Positions 28,439 to 35,056 of a DNA stretch of 64,000 nucleotides are shown here, in pieces. Numbering within the stretch: position 1 is the stretch's first letter; each line of letters opens with the position of its first letter. A program made the translations under genes and the position numbers. Source of the DNA: Pseudanabaena galeata CCNP1313. Its GTDB lineage: Bacteria; Cyanobacteriota; Cyanobacteriia; Pseudanabaenales; Pseudanabaenaceae. The stretch is taken from positions 1,116,001 to 1,180,000 of the forward strand of contig NZ_CP112874.1 of NCBI RefSeq assembly GCF_029910235.1. The letters run 5' to 3'. A model generated the notes under the pieces. That model had not been told where the DNA came from. It made no database searches and worked only from the letters and a program-made list of their open reading frames with translations.

Positions 28439-29941
28439 TTAATAGGGAGCTTGCGGGAAAAGAGCTTCTTGCTGAAGAAACTTGGCGTAAAACTCTTTCG
28501 CTACGGTATCGATCGCATCGTAGGCTTCGACTGCTTCGATACCTGATTTGCGAAGGCTTTCTTGAGGACAGTTGCCGATTTTGGAGGTCAGGACGGCTGT
28601 GCAATCAGCAATGGAAGAGATAATTTCTTCGAGAGTTGCTTCTTCGCCATAACCGCTTTGACAATATTGGTCAATCTTGCGATGTCCGACAAATTTAACT
28701 TCAGTGGCATCAACTTCGTAAATTTGGAACTCTTTAGCATGACCGAAGTGTTGATTGACAATGCCACTGCCTTTGGTAGTGACAGCTACAAGGATTTTGG
28801 GAGTCTCCACTGTCTTCTGAATGTTTGTCACCTTAACTTTCTTCTCTTGTAATTCTGCTTGTAAGAGATCGATGCCAGCATGAACCACTTGACGAGCTTC
28901 CAAATCATAGGTGGGAGCCATTTCCATGAACTTGTCTTTGGTAAACTCTTGGGAACGATCTTCACCGAGTAACCCGACAGCATCGGCACGGCATTGACGG
29001 CAGTGGCGCATGATCTTCATGTTGCCTTCAGCACAGTGATCCTGAAGCTTTTTCAACTCCTTCGGATTGGGACCGCGTTGTCCAGTTAAGCCAAAGTATG
29101 TACCATGCTCAGGAGCCGAGATTAGAGGCATAATATTGTGGAGAAATGCTCCTTTCTCACGGATCACCCGACCGACTTCCACTAAATGCTCATCGTTAAT
29201 TCCAGGAATCATCACCGAATTAACTTTGCAAAGAATGTCTGCTTCTCTGAGCAAATCCAAGCTTAGCATTTGACGCTCATGCAGAATTTGAGAAGCTTCT
29301 AAACCTGTGTAGCGTTTACGGTTATAACGAACCCAAGGATAAATCTTAGTGCCGATTTCTGGATCAACCATGTTAATCGTGATCGTCACATGATCGATGT
29401 TTAACTTCTTGATGCGATCGACATATTCAGGAAGCATCAAGCCATTGGTGGAAAGACAAAGCTTAATATCTGGAGCCTGAGCTGCAATCAACTCAAAAGT
29501 GCGGAAAGTCTTTTCAGGATTGGCTAAAGGGTCACCCGGACCTGCAATTCCCAACACGGTCATTTGGGGGATTTTGCCGCCAATTACCATTACTTTGTGA
29601 GCCGCTTCTTCGGGAGTTAATAATTCGCTAACTACTCCAGGACGGCTTTCGTTTGCACAGTCATATTTACGATTGCAGTAGTTACACTGAATGTTACAAG
29701 CGGGAGCTACAGCAACGTGCATTCTTGCATAGTGATGGTGAGCATCTTCGCTATAGCAAGGGTGCTTCGCAATCCGCTCTTGCATACTTTCACTCAAGGC
29801 ATTTTTTTGGGCACTTTTGTTAGAAGTTTGAGAACCCTTAGAGCTACTACAACCACAGTTTCCTGATTTTGACTTTGCAGAAGTTGTAGAAATCTTATTC
29901 TCAACTGGTGAGGCAATGAGAGCTTGTGTCGGTGGTGTCAT
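28439..29941 (-). CDS. nifB: FeMo-co precursor synthase NifB (radical SAM)
   Basis: 500 aa. Radical-SAM cysteines in [13 protein letters not shown] (~115-125), plus [15 protein letters not shown]-like lead-in and further cysteines ([12 protein letters not shown]) for the auxiliary clusters. Residues ~380-480 form a NifX/NafY-like domain ([24 protein letters not shown]). It builds NifB-co, the 8Fe-9S-C core of FeMo-co. First gene of the left arm, divergent from nifP across a 995-bp control region. Confidence 0.96.
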
Positions 29942-30111
29942 TGAAGCTTCCTGATAGGTGGACTGCGGTCAACGTTGAGAACTTTATAGCAGTGACCTTC
30001 AGACAGCTTGGACAAGCGATCGCGATAAGATTTATTAAATACATTAAGCTTGTACTCAAAAACTACACCCCAAACTGAGCCTATATTTAAGCTGTTTCAA
30101 AAAATATTTTG

Positions 30112-30170
30112 GGGTAGGGGTACGAGTATTAATAGGGTAGGGGTTAGGTATTTAAGGGTAGGGGTACAGT
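30112..30170 (+). promoter_or_regulatory. Array of three G-rich repeats upstream of nifB
   Basis: GGGTAGGGGT occurs at 30112, 30135 and 30156, i.e. 23- and 21-bp steps (about two helical turns). The first unit continues ACGAGTATT. The array lies 171-224 bp upstream of the nifB start. It is suited to cooperative activator binding on one face of DNA. G-quadruplex formation is an alternative reading. Confidence 0.75.
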
Positions 30171-30546
30171 TTTGCTTGTACTCATAACAAATCCAGTTAT
30201 AGCAAGCTATACAAACAAAAAATGAGTGCTAATTGCAAGCACTTTTCTATGTACTCAAAAAAGATAACAATTCTTACAAAAAATATAAGATTAATGGCTA
30301 GGAGTCATGTATAGACTTCTTTTTGAGTATTTTTACTAGCTTTTATTGAGGCGATTAATTTTGTATCTAAATTATCATTCCTTCGATAATCTGTAGCAAA
30401 AGGATCAAATTTTTTTAACAATTGTCAGGAGTTGCTTTCTTTCTTCAAAAACCGATTTTAAACGTATCTATATATACAGATCTAAATCCAAAAAATTTAA
30501 ATTTATTCCTTGATTTTTGAGGGCTAGTACAGTAGAGTAATAAATC

Positions 30547-30613
30547 GTAGCTATTAATACAAAATCTTATTTACTCAACAGGAATTGGCTCATTTCTGAG
30601 TACCTATGAGTAC
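30547..30613. promoter_or_regulatory. Two candidate NtcA sites
   Basis: GTAGCTATTAATAC (30547-30560) and GTACCTATGAGTAC (30600-30613) both match GTA-N8-TAC, the consensus of the nitrogen regulator NtcA. They are 53 bp apart, about five helical turns. I could not find a well-placed TAN3T -10 box in either direction, so direct activation from these sites is uncertain. Confidence 0.45.
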
Positions 30614-30717
30614 AATTTGATTTTGCTTATTTTTCTGTCTTCAAACCCTTATCCATGCTTGCGATTAGCATTTAATCTTTAAGTACAGAATTAGCAGAAA
30701 TGGCTGTAAAAATACTT

Positions 30718-30774
30718 ATCCCTATTCCCTTAAATACTAGTACCCCCTCCCAAGAATACTAGTACCCCTATCCC
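30718..30774 (-). promoter_or_regulatory. Array of three G-rich repeats upstream of nifP (mirror of the nifB array)
   Basis: Read on the minus strand: GGGATAGGGGTACTAGTATT (from 30774), GGGAGGGGGTACTAGTATT (from 30751) and the weaker GGGAATAGGGATAAGTATT (from 30729), at 22-24-bp steps. It lies 163-219 bp upstream of the nifP start, nearly the same distance as the nifB array and in the opposite orientation, so each array has the same polarity relative to its gene. Confidence 0.75.
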
Positions 30775-30936
30775 AAAAGAAAAGTTAAACTCCCTAGGAG
30801 TAGGGCTTAAGCCCTTTGAGTACTTGCTTAATTAATTTAATAAATCTTATCCGCAACATTCTTTTTCGTGGGATTGGCAGTACCTGATATAAGCAAGAGG
30901 ACAGAACTCCGCACCTCTTAACTGTCAGAGACTGCA

Positions 30937-31770
30937 ATGCTGCAACCTATCTCTCCCCTAAACACTTTGGACACTCAAGAAATCGATCGCATATATGCCA
31001 CAGCATATCCATCGGATTTCCCATCCAAATCATCTGCACATTCACTCTGGCAGTTTTATCAGGTGCAACTGGCTCGATTGCCATTAGCTCAATCACAAGT
31101 TGTTCATCAATGGCAACAGGTCACAGAAGTTCTACAAGTATTCAAGGCTGATTTCCAAGCGATCACCGATCGCGATCCTGCGGCTCACCATTGGTTAGAG
31201 ATTTTATGCTGCTATCCGGGGCTACATGCCTTGGTGATCCACCGCTTTACCCATTGGTTACACCATCGCCAGATTCCCATACTCCCAAGGTTAATTGCCT
31301 ACTGTGCGCGATTTATCACAGGGCTTGACATTCATCCTGCCGCCACCATTGGCAAAGGGGTATTTATCGACCACGGTATGGGCGTAGTCATTGGTGAAAC
31401 TGCGATCGTCGGTGACTATGTACTGCTCTACCAAGGTGTCACCCTTGGCGGTACAGGCAAGGAAACTGGCAAACGTCACCCAACCATCGGCAACCATGCG
31501 ATCGTCGGTGCAGGAGCTAAAGTCCTCGGCAACATCCACATTGGTGATTATGCGCGAATTGGGGCAGGCTCCGTTGTCCTGCGTGATGTCCCACCCCACA
31601 CCACGGCTGTGGGTGTCCCTGCTCGTGTTTGTCGTATTAATCAGCCAGCCTCGTTAGGGCAAGCCAATCAAGAACAGTTAGCCGATCCATCGGCTGACAT
31701 GTTACAGGCTTTGCTCCTTCGCATCGAGCGGCTCGAACAACAGCTTTCAGACAAAATTTCCCAGAAGTAA
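30937..31770 (+). CDS. nifP: Serine O-acetyltransferase, nif-linked (NifP)
   Basis: 277 aa. N-terminal helical region, then a left-handed beta-helix of hexapeptide repeats (~125-225) with IHPAATIGKGVFIDHGMGVVIGE, the catalytic-type GVTLGGTGKETGKRHPTIG and GAGSVVLRDVPPHTTAVGVPARV. It makes O-acetylserine for cysteine synthesis, supplying NifS during nitrogen fixation. It could be the housekeeping CysE, but its place as first gene of the right nif arm favours NifP. The C-terminal coiled tail is longer than the minimal CysE. Confidence 0.9.
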   Translation: MLQPISPLNTLDTQEIDRIYATAYPSDFPSKSSAHSLWQFYQVQLARLPLAQSQVVHQWQQVTEVLQVFKADFQAITDRDPAAHHWLEILCCYPGLHALVIHRFTHWLHHRQIPILPRLIAYCARFITGLDIHPAATIGKGVFIDHGMGVVIGETAIVGDYVLLYQGVTLGGTGKETGKRHPTIGNHAIVGAGAKVLGNIHIGDYARIGAGSVVLRDVPPHTTAVGVPARVCRINQPASLGQANQEQLADPSADMLQALLLRIERLEQQLSDKISQK

Positions 31771-32332: not shown

Positions 32333-35056
32333 ATGAAACTCACACAAGGAAAAATCAACGAACTCCTCTCTGAGACTGCCTGTGAGCATAATCATCACAA
32401 AGATGGGCAGAAAAAGAACAAGGCTTGCTCGCAACAAGCGCAACCAGGAGCCGCGCAAGGGGGCTGTGCCTTTGATGGTGCATCGATCGCTCTTGTTCCC
32501 ATTACCGATGTCGCCCATCTCGTCCACGCGCCGATCGCCTGTGGCGGTAATTCTTGGGGTGCAAGAGGTAGCCTATCGTCAGGATCGACCATGTATAAAA
32601 TGGGCTTTACCACCGACCTCAGCGAAAACGATATTATTTTCGGTGGCGAGAAAAAGCTCTACAGGGCGATTTTAGAAGTGCAGGAACGTTATCACCCTGC
32701 GGCGGTGTTTGTGTACAACACCTGCGTGACTGCCCTGATTGGTGACGATCTTGAAGCAGTCTGTCAAAAAGCATCCGCGAAAGCAGGTATTCCCGTCGTG
32801 CCAATTAATTCACCGGGGTTCGCTGGAACCAAGAATTTAGGCAATCGCATGGGCGGCGAAGCTTTACTAGAATATGTGATTGGCACTGCCGAACCAGAAT
32901 TTACCACTCCCTACGATATCAATCTGATTGGCGAATACAATATCGCGGGTGAAATGTGGAACGTGCTGCCCTTATTTGAGAAATTGGGCATTCGCGTATT
33001 GTCGAAAATCACGGGTGATGCCACCTATCAAGAAGTTTGTTATGCTCACCGTGCCAAACTGAACGTGATCATTTGTTCCAAAGCCTTAATCAACGTCGCT
33101 CGCAAGATGGAAGAGCGCTATGGCATTCCCTACACCGAAGAATCTTTTTATGGGATTGCCGACATGAATCAATGTCTACGCAATATTGCCGCAAAATTAG
33201 GCGATCGCACTGGAGATTATAGTTTACAAGATCGAGTCGAAAAGCTGATCGCAGAAGAATCAGCAAACCTCGATCGCGAACTTGCACCATACCGCGATCG
33301 CCTCAAGGGTAAAAAAGTTGTTCTCTACACAGGTGGTGTCAAAAGCTGGTCAATCATTTCCGCCGCGAAAGATTTGGGTATGGAAGTGGTTGCCACCAGC
33401 ACTAAAAAAAGTACGGAAGAAGATAAAGCAAAAATTCGCGCCTTGCTCAGTAAAGATGGGATCATGATGGAGAAAGGGAACGCCCAAGAATTGCTCAAAA
33501 CCATTGCCAAAACCCAAGCCGATATGCTGATCGCAGGTGGTCGCAACCAATACACCGCCCTCAAAGCGAGGATTCCCTTTCTCGATATCAACCAAGAGCG
33601 CCATCATGCTTATGCGGGCTATGTGGGTATGATCGAGATTGCCAGAGAATTAGAAGAAGCTCTCTATAGTCCAATTTGGGAGCAAGTCCGTCAACCCGCA
33701 CCTTGGGAAGATCCGATTGCATTTAATAAGTCTCTATTGATTGAAAATCATGCTGAGCAAGTTAAAACCGATATCATCACCCCGAAAAAATCTGTCACTG
33801 TTAATGCTCTCAAGCAAAGTCAGCCCCTCGGCGCATCCCTTGCATTTCTGGGACTAAAGGGCGCAATGCCATTAATGCATGGTTCCCAAGGCTGTACAGC
33901 CTTCGCCAAGGTGCAACTTGTCCGCCATTTTCGCGAAGCAATTCCTCTTGCTACCACAGCGATGACGGAAGTTACGACAATTCTCGGTGGTGAGGACAAT
34001 ATTGAGCAGGCGATTTTAACCCTAGTGGAAAAAGCAAAGCCCGAAATCATTGGACTCTGCACTACAGGTTTAACGGAGACTCGCGGTGATGATATGGAAG
34101 GAATTCTCCGAACCTTCCGACAGAAACATCCTGAACTTGATCAACTGGCGATCGCTTTTGCCTCAACTCCCGATTTTCGAGGAGCGTTACAGGATGGCTA
34201 TGCAGCAGTAATTGAGAGCATTGTGCGATCGCTGCCCCAAGCAGGTATCAAAAATCCTCAGCAGGTAACGGTCTTAGCCAGTTCGGCTCTAGCCCCTGGG
34301 GATATCCAAGAGATTAAGGAGATCATTAATTCCTTTGGACTAACGCCAATTTTCATTCCCGATCTTTCGAGTTCCATGGATGGACATTTGAGTGAGAGTT
34401 ACAGCCCTGTCACCACAGGCGGAACCACCCTAGAGCAGATTCACAGTGTTGGTAGTTCTGTATTTACCCTCGCCTTGGGTGAAAGTATGCGAACTGCGGC
34501 TACAATTTTGCAAGAGCGCTTTGGTACTGATTATCAAGTATTTGATCGCCTCACAGGACTAGGTGCAACCGATCTAATCTTGCAACAACTCCATCAATTG
34601 AGTGGAGTTGACGTACCTGAGAAATATCGTTATCAAAGACAACAACTCCAAGATGCAATTCTTGATACCCACTTCTATTTCGGTCGCAAGCGTGTTTCCC
34701 TCGCCCTAGAACCAGATCTGCTTTATAGCGTGGCTTGGTGGCTGTCAGAGATGGGCGTAGAACTGCAAGCCGCTGTCACCACGACGCGATCGCCTTTATT
34801 AGAGAAGTTGCCGATCTCGGAAGTAACGATTGGTGATCTCGAAGATTTTGAAAACCTCGCCGCAGGTTCTGATTTGGCAATAACAAATTCTAACGGAAAG
34901 AGAACTGCTAAGAAATTAGGAATTCCCCTCTATCGTTTAGGCTTTCCCATTCTAGACCGTCTAGGTAATGGACATCGCAGCATCGTTGGTTATCGCGGCA
35001 CGATGGAACTACTTTTTGAACTTGGCAATATTTGGCTGGAAGCCGAAGAAAAGTAA
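32333..35056 (+). CDS. nifEN: Fused FeMo-co scaffold NifE-NifN
   Basis: 907 aa, one uninterrupted frame. Residues 1-~455 are NifE (Cys45 in QGGCAFDG, Cys70 in [10 protein letters not shown], Cys131 in [12 protein letters not shown], Cys248 in VIICSKAL), ending in the usual [13 protein letters not shown]. Then ~30 linker residues, and NifN from ~488 ([21 protein letters not shown], Cys521 in [12 protein letters not shown]). NifEN normally is an alpha2beta2 of two gene products on which NifB-co is turned into FeMo-co. Here both chains are covalently joined, fixing 1:1 stoichiometry. No internal stop or start with a ribosome-binding site was seen at the joint. Confidence 0.93.

Follow-up and report, generated by a model that had tools for sequence, protein, structure and literature searches.

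The nifB and nifP promoters of Leptolyngbya boryana are reportedly CnfR-dependent, as described by Tsujimoto, Kamiya and Fujita in 2014 and 2016, and their cis-element is said to be defined in Mol Microbiol 2016;101:411. CnfR drives divergent transcription of nifB and nifP in this organism, where the truncated nifB promoter includes the CnfR motifs I-IX (PMC5943405). These motifs likely include some of the 22-bp units considered below. In A. variabilis, three conserved cis-elements are regarded as probable CnfR sites, and nifB1 transcription falls by 75% when two of the conserved sites are lost (PMC8510180); three TGAGTATA motifs, one further motif and an extended -10 have been described for the same gene, with the start at -328 (PMC4284476).

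Here, we compare with these systems the region between nifB and nifP in a window of 64,000 nt (the whole stretch of DNA analysed; G000:C1:1116001-1180000) from the genome (5.84 Mb) of a Pseudanabaena cyanobacterium. The closest relative of its nifB outside the window, that of Pseudanabaena sp. UBA1465, is 95% identical, and the serine O-acetyltransferase gene of the window occupies the position of nifP in L. boryana. An earlier note on this DNA had reported two mirror-image arrays of three G-rich repeats between these genes, and on re-checking the sequences and coordinates of both arrays proved correct: GGGTAGGGGT occurs on the plus strand at 30112, 30135 and 30156, and the nifP-side units start on the minus strand at 30774, 30751 and 30729. 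The distances given for them, 171-224 bp upstream of nifB and 163-219 bp upstream of nifP, are also right, and each array has the same polarity relative to its own gene (nifB 30111-30169; nifP 30710-30774). In the whole window, triples of the unit at a spacing of 18-26 bp are limited to the two in the intergenic region, and none of 2000 dinucleotide shuffles of that region gave a G-rich unit triple at such a spacing.

Each array is embedded in a larger conserved promoter module of about 270 bp, and the intergenic region consists of two diverging copies of one module, one per gene arm. Read toward the gene, the module runs from TGAGTAC box 1 over about 73 bp to TGAGTAC box 2 and three direct repeats of about 22 bp (coding-strand sequence AAATACTMGWACCCCNACCC), and continues with an A/T tract, TGAGTAC box 3, a TTTAATAAATCTTATC block and an extended -10. 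The features are as follows:

28439..29941, minus strand: nifB (TIGR01290, 673 bits)
29982..29991, minus strand: nifB putative extended -10, TGCTATAAAG, assigned by sequence
30024..30039, minus strand: nifB conserved block TTTAATAAATCTTATC, shared unchanged with the nifP module
30042..30058, minus strand: nifB box 3, TGAGTACAAGCTTAATG (TGAGTAC from 30058)
30111..30131, minus strand: nifB array unit 3, TAATACTCGTACCCCTACCCC on the coding strand
30135..30153, minus strand: nifB array unit 2, AAATACCTAACCCCTACCC
30156..30169, minus strand: nifB array unit 1, CTGTACCCCTACCC, 5′ half degenerate
30169..30184, minus strand: nifB box 2, TGAGTAC (from 30184)
30244..30257, minus strand: nifB box 1, TGAGTAC (from 30257)
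30597..30613, plus strand: nifP box 1, doubled TGAGTAC, copies at 30597 and 30607, 10 bp apart
30701..30708, plus strand: nifP box 2, degenerate, TGGCTGTA, aligned where nifB has TGAGTAC
30710..30729, plus strand: nifP array unit 1, AAATACTTATCCCTATTCCC
30732..30751, plus strand: nifP array unit 2, AAATACTAGTACCCCCTCCC
30754..30774, plus strand: nifP array unit 3, GAATACTAGTACCCCTATCCC
30817..30831, plus strand: nifP box 3, TGAGTACTTGCTTAA
30836..30851, plus strand: nifP conserved block TTTAATAAATCTTATC
30885..30894, plus strand: nifP putative extended -10, TGATATAAGC, assigned by sequence
30937..31770, plus strand: nifP (serine O-acetyltransferase; TIGR01172)

Both modules hold three TGAGTA-type motifs, all of them exact TGAGTAC at nifB, boxes 1 and 3 exact and box 2 degenerate at nifP, and a putative extended -10 precedes each gene. 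TTAAGTAC at 30680 was considered as nifP box 2, but the alignment places the start of the array elsewhere, so that its presence is probably a coincidence. Three exact GTAN8TAC (NtcA-type) sequences occur between both modules, at 30464, 30547 and 30600, the last of which overlaps the doubled nifP box 1. Further along the window, nifE and nifN are fused into one gene of 907 aa (32333-35056), the counterpart of which in the close relative Pseudanabaena sp. ABRG5-3 is annotated as bifunctional NifEN. In ABRG5-3, a whole nif cluster, with cnfR, modAB and bchE, is on plasmid ABRG53d (NZ_AP017564.1, L237; 125.5 kb); the nif cluster of the window's genome is on a 4.9-Mb contig.

One shared architecture is present in most of about 60 cyanobacterial nifB upstream regions: TGAGTAC, a gap of 70-80 bp (mostly 71-73), TGAGTAC, three AAATACTMGWACCCCNACCC repeats of about 22 bp and an A/T tract, followed by GGGTTT...TTTGAGTACA, TTAAT.AATCCAATAAATTCTATCC and the extended -10 TGNTATAA. 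In an alignment of 40 modules (A1), information is highest at AAATAC, CC and the third box and weaker in the C/G run; conservation in the module peaks at and around box 3. Within the unit, the G-rich half is the less conserved one and AAATACT.G.ACC the best-conserved part, and Trichodesmium nifP has three well-formed units in which C/G runs are nearly absent. The emphasis that the earlier note had laid on the G-rich part was therefore misplaced.

A profile without secondary structure, R1, was built from A1, its training set consisting of nif promoters only. In the window's own genome it finds only the nifB (E 6.7e-29) and nifP (E 7.1e-24) copies, the next match having an E of 0.16. It matches 56 of 57 cyanobacterial nifB loci, Gloeomargarita included, many of the 56 being in the training set, and none of 16 proteobacterial nifB loci. 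A divergent pair of modules is present in 32 of the 56 loci, less than 1 kb apart in 23 of these 32, and each of the 25 nifP genes that these loci were found to contain carries a module of its own; thus the mirror-image pair is common in cyanobacterial nifB-nifP regions and no peculiarity of this strain. These counts also bear out the conservation of the arrays in related nif clusters, on which the earlier note had made its reading depend. When a module is called at E<=1e-6, 120 of 390 genomes of the class have both module and NifB, 9 the module only and 8 NifB only; the corresponding numbers for a strong CnfR are 117, 12 and 4, with several of the exceptions being incomplete assemblies and the co-occurrence of module and CnfR partly reflecting co-inheritance with nif.

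The units are spaced by 21-23 bp, about two helical turns, as had been proposed from the window alone. The distance from the end of the array to box 3 is 53 bp at nifB and 43 bp at nifP, and the two modules of the window differ in length by 10-11 bp, about one helical turn, with 67-68 bp from box 3 to the extended -10 in both. Among the 150 best R1 matches listed, counted irrespective of relatedness, module lengths relative to the model are bimodal, 45 lying at 0 (+-2), 105 at -9 to -14 (about -11) and none between; the two length classes, about one helical turn apart, both occur within the same genomes. Gain or loss of a full helical turn thus seems to be tolerated, that of half a turn not, as expected if the proteins at the array and at box 3 must share one face of the DNA.

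The likely regulator is the single CnfR-type protein of this genome (C1:1801468-1803102; L119:5469-7103), which has 544 aa, two N-terminal 4Fe-4S motifs and a C-terminal HTH_3 domain and is 47-60% identical to the Fe-S CnfR from nif loci of other genera. The sequence upstream of cnfR itself has neither TGAGTAC nor an R1 match. In a PDB profile search only the ferredoxin-like and HTH ends were matched, the middle domain being unmatched among the matches listed, and a search of viral contigs found no CnfR. An AlphaFold2 model of the CnfR relative L071, made from a two-row alignment, had a mean pLDDT of 34 and was discarded. Around cnfR (L119, G000:C1:1796000-1806000) lie an ABC transporter with an extracellular solute-binding protein, which looks like sulfate uptake, a Rrf2-type regulator and an apparent cysK gene. 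In a divergent nif-linked branch (L070, L071, L244-L248; Gloeomargarita and others), the two 4Fe-4S motifs of CnfR are replaced by an N-terminal CxxCP, and TGAGTAC-type boxes are retained.

A module is also present in some genomes lacking NifB, together with a relative of CnfR at about 40% identity. These relatives are without the N-terminal iron-sulfur motif and, in an unrooted tree, group as a single clade (100/99) apart from every nif-linked CnfR. Relatives occur in 38 plasmid records, one of these hits, ABRG53d, being a true nif-linked CnfR. R1 matches directly downstream of the relative's gene (E 3.4e-10, 4.9e-8, 3.3e-7 ... to 2e-6 in 383 kb), and the best of these matches align end to end and almost gapless. 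A 20-25-bp tandem array lies at most 1 kb downstream of 17 of 36 relatives at P<=0.005, compared with three arrays upstream at P<=0.05; about half of the 36 have no significant tandem array within 1 kb. In 14 genomes with relatives, 17 of 63 occurrences of CTAGAACCCCNACCC (<=1 mismatch), a pattern picked after such arrays had been seen, are within 1.5 kb of a relative, 0.014 being expected.

The genes downstream of the relatives include those for replication proteins (AEP primase plus DnaB helicase, DUF3854, PriCT_2). In pSYN7502.01 of Synechococcus sp. PCC 7502, the relative (WP_015146346.1) is followed by a sevenfold repeat of ACACTAGAACCCCACCCCT, accompanied by TGATTACA boxes and TGGTATAA, and then by WP_015146345.1, annotated as 'plasmid replication protein, CyRepA1 family'. 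In pGLO7428.02 of Gloeocapsa sp. PCC 7428, the order is ParB, the relative WP_015328669.1, four TCTAGAACCCC units, TGTTATAA and a DUF3987 protein. Plasmid3 of Leptolyngbya sp. NIES-3755 has ParA, ParB and the relative BAU16141.1, and in Nostoc sp. UHCC 0302 the relative is more distant and is accompanied by three 22-bp units and a PriCT-2 protein. One plasmid-array unit, TACACTAGAACCCCACCCC, is close to unit 3 of the window's nifP array (AATACTAGTACCCCTATCCC). In two genomes of one multi-copy family, with 3-4 modules per genome, an additional CnfR-type module stands before a conserved set of genes beginning MKAKLLNVLTV or MKVKLLNVLTV (L191:12462-12619, L196:7040-7196). Two other matches, in G131:C43 (L188) and G297:C89 (L185), are weak.

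Situated upstream of nifB and nifP in a cyanobacterium whose genome encodes CnfR, the arrays and modules of the window belong, judged from sequence, to the already known class of CnfR-dependent nif promoters. It is quite probable that each array is the upstream activating part of such a promoter. In the earlier note the array was taken for the platform of a CnfR-like activator, and this idea has gained from its conservation, its co-occurrence with CnfR, its two-turn spacing and its recurrence beside plasmid relatives, the stress on G-rich sequence being the part to be given up. The note's further proposal, that the arrays might balance the expression of the two arms, concerns modules that differ by about one helical turn and, at nifP, in a degenerate box 2. 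We infer that CnfR touches the array directly, how many protomers take part and in what order things happen. Most likely, at low oxygen and under nitrogen starvation, several CnfR protomers would load co-operatively along the same side of the helix, covering the boxes as well as the three phased units, and would recruit RNA polymerase to the extended -10 promoter. In nif, the iron-sulfur N-terminus would tie activation to low oxygen, a sensing step taken from the CnfR literature.

A second reading, which we consider unlikely, is that CnfR reads the TGAGTAC boxes only and that a different protein, acting in the same promoters, occupies the 22-bp array. Boxes and array are indeed separate blocks, with conservation greatest around box 3, and the dependence proved in the papers concerns whole promoters or unspecified conserved sites, so that another protein could read the array. 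Between plasmid clades, both the box sequence (TGATTACA, GTTACA, GTCACA, GTAAACA) and the recognition helix vary, which suits an HTH reading the box: TGAGTAC goes with SQSWIRD of nif CnfR, TGATTACA with SQGLISL, GTTACA with STSWVKL, GTCACA with SVSWVKM and GTAAACA with TKMWISL. The correspondence is not one-to-one, because in one plasmid pair (L187, L207) TGAGTAC occurs with the helix SQKMISM. However, the array too varies by clade along with the CnfR relative and stays beside the relative's gene on nif-less plasmids; any such additional protein would need to have accompanied CnfR onto each of the plasmids, and none was seen. This covariation of boxes and units by clade supports, without proving, a CnfR-type protein that would read both elements.

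It is very improbable that the G-rich strand acts as a structure, a G-quadruplex serving, for example, as a transcription block or a redox-sensitive element. There are six G runs per 60 nt, and half of the 40 modules have four GGG runs when loops of up to 20 nt are allowed, but the strict motif (four runs of at least 3 G, loops 1-7) is found in none of the 40 nif modules and in neither array of the window; moreover, the conserved half of the unit is AAATACT and not the C run, and the Trichodesmium nifP units are almost without such runs.

We give hardly any weight to the idea that the arrays are iterons of a replication origin, for which one could cite the related arrays preceding CyRepA1 and primase genes on plasmids and the location of nif and cnfR on plasmid ABRG53d (125.5 kb). 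In the window, the genes that follow the arrays are nifB and nifP and no replication gene, as would be found at a plasmid replication operator, the module ends in an extended -10 promoter, and the nif cluster lies on a 4.9-Mb contig, the same module being present on multi-megabase contigs in other genomes. That the arrays are decayed, functionless copies of the genomic repeat GGCTAGGGGTGAGGGTCTT, a dispersed element with a similar core in the same genome, has a negligible chance, as the position of the array is conserved across the phylum, R1 recovers only the two nif copies in the genome, and GGCTAGGGGTGAGGGTCTT is a different element that is absent at nif. With about 30 dispersed copies on several contigs (one at about 3458 of the window, minus strand), GGCTAGGGGTGAGGGTCTT itself looks like an interspersed repeat.

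The CnfR-dependent promoter, as read here, can be written as a parts list of the nif switch: boxes, three 22-bp units in phase, spacing that varies by one turn, and an extended -10, with each operon arm having its own module. This amounts to a precise, phylum-wide description of the cyanobacterial switch and is useful for moving nif clusters into new hosts. The plasmid CnfR relatives with their CyRepA-type genes provide an independent handle on what CnfR recognises. Regulator and operator appear from these comparisons to form a family wider than nif, and the link to plasmid replication is new as far as found, none between CnfR/PatB and plasmid replication having been met in the literature searched. 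A shared ancestry is supported both for the regulators and for the operators; a direction from plasmid to nif is without support, because the tree is unrooted. The chances are evenly balanced that CnfR and its operator are members of a wider family of cassettes for plasmid replication control. CnfR would then be an HTH regulator of the plasmid type to which a ferredoxin-like oxygen/redox sensor has been fused, and the nif promoters would be re-used operators of that cassette (box, 22-bp array, box, extended -10). The plasmid link thereby offers a testable hypothesis for the origin of oxygen-controlled nif regulation.

Of the known systems, that of L. boryana resembles the window in having a divergent nifB-nifP intergenic region and CnfR in the same genome, and a locus from the genus Leptolyngbya (L238) has the same mirrored pair of modules; in L. 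boryana, however, cnfR is inside the nif cluster, whereas in the window's genome it is 0.66 Mb away. The nifB1 and nifB2 promoters of A. variabilis share the three TGAGTA-type motifs and the extended -10 (PMC4284476, PMC8510180), but the text of these papers names TGAGTATA and one further motif and describes no three-unit array. The plasmid replication operators (e.g. pSYN7502.01, CyRepA1) differ in that the downstream gene encodes a replication protein, the adjoining CnfR relative has no N-terminal iron-sulfur motif and the box sequence is another one; they nevertheless share with the nif modules tandem repeats of 22-23 bp whose core is CTAG.ACCCC, spaced boxes, an adjoining regulator of the CnfR type and, in one clade, the extended -10 TGNTATAA.
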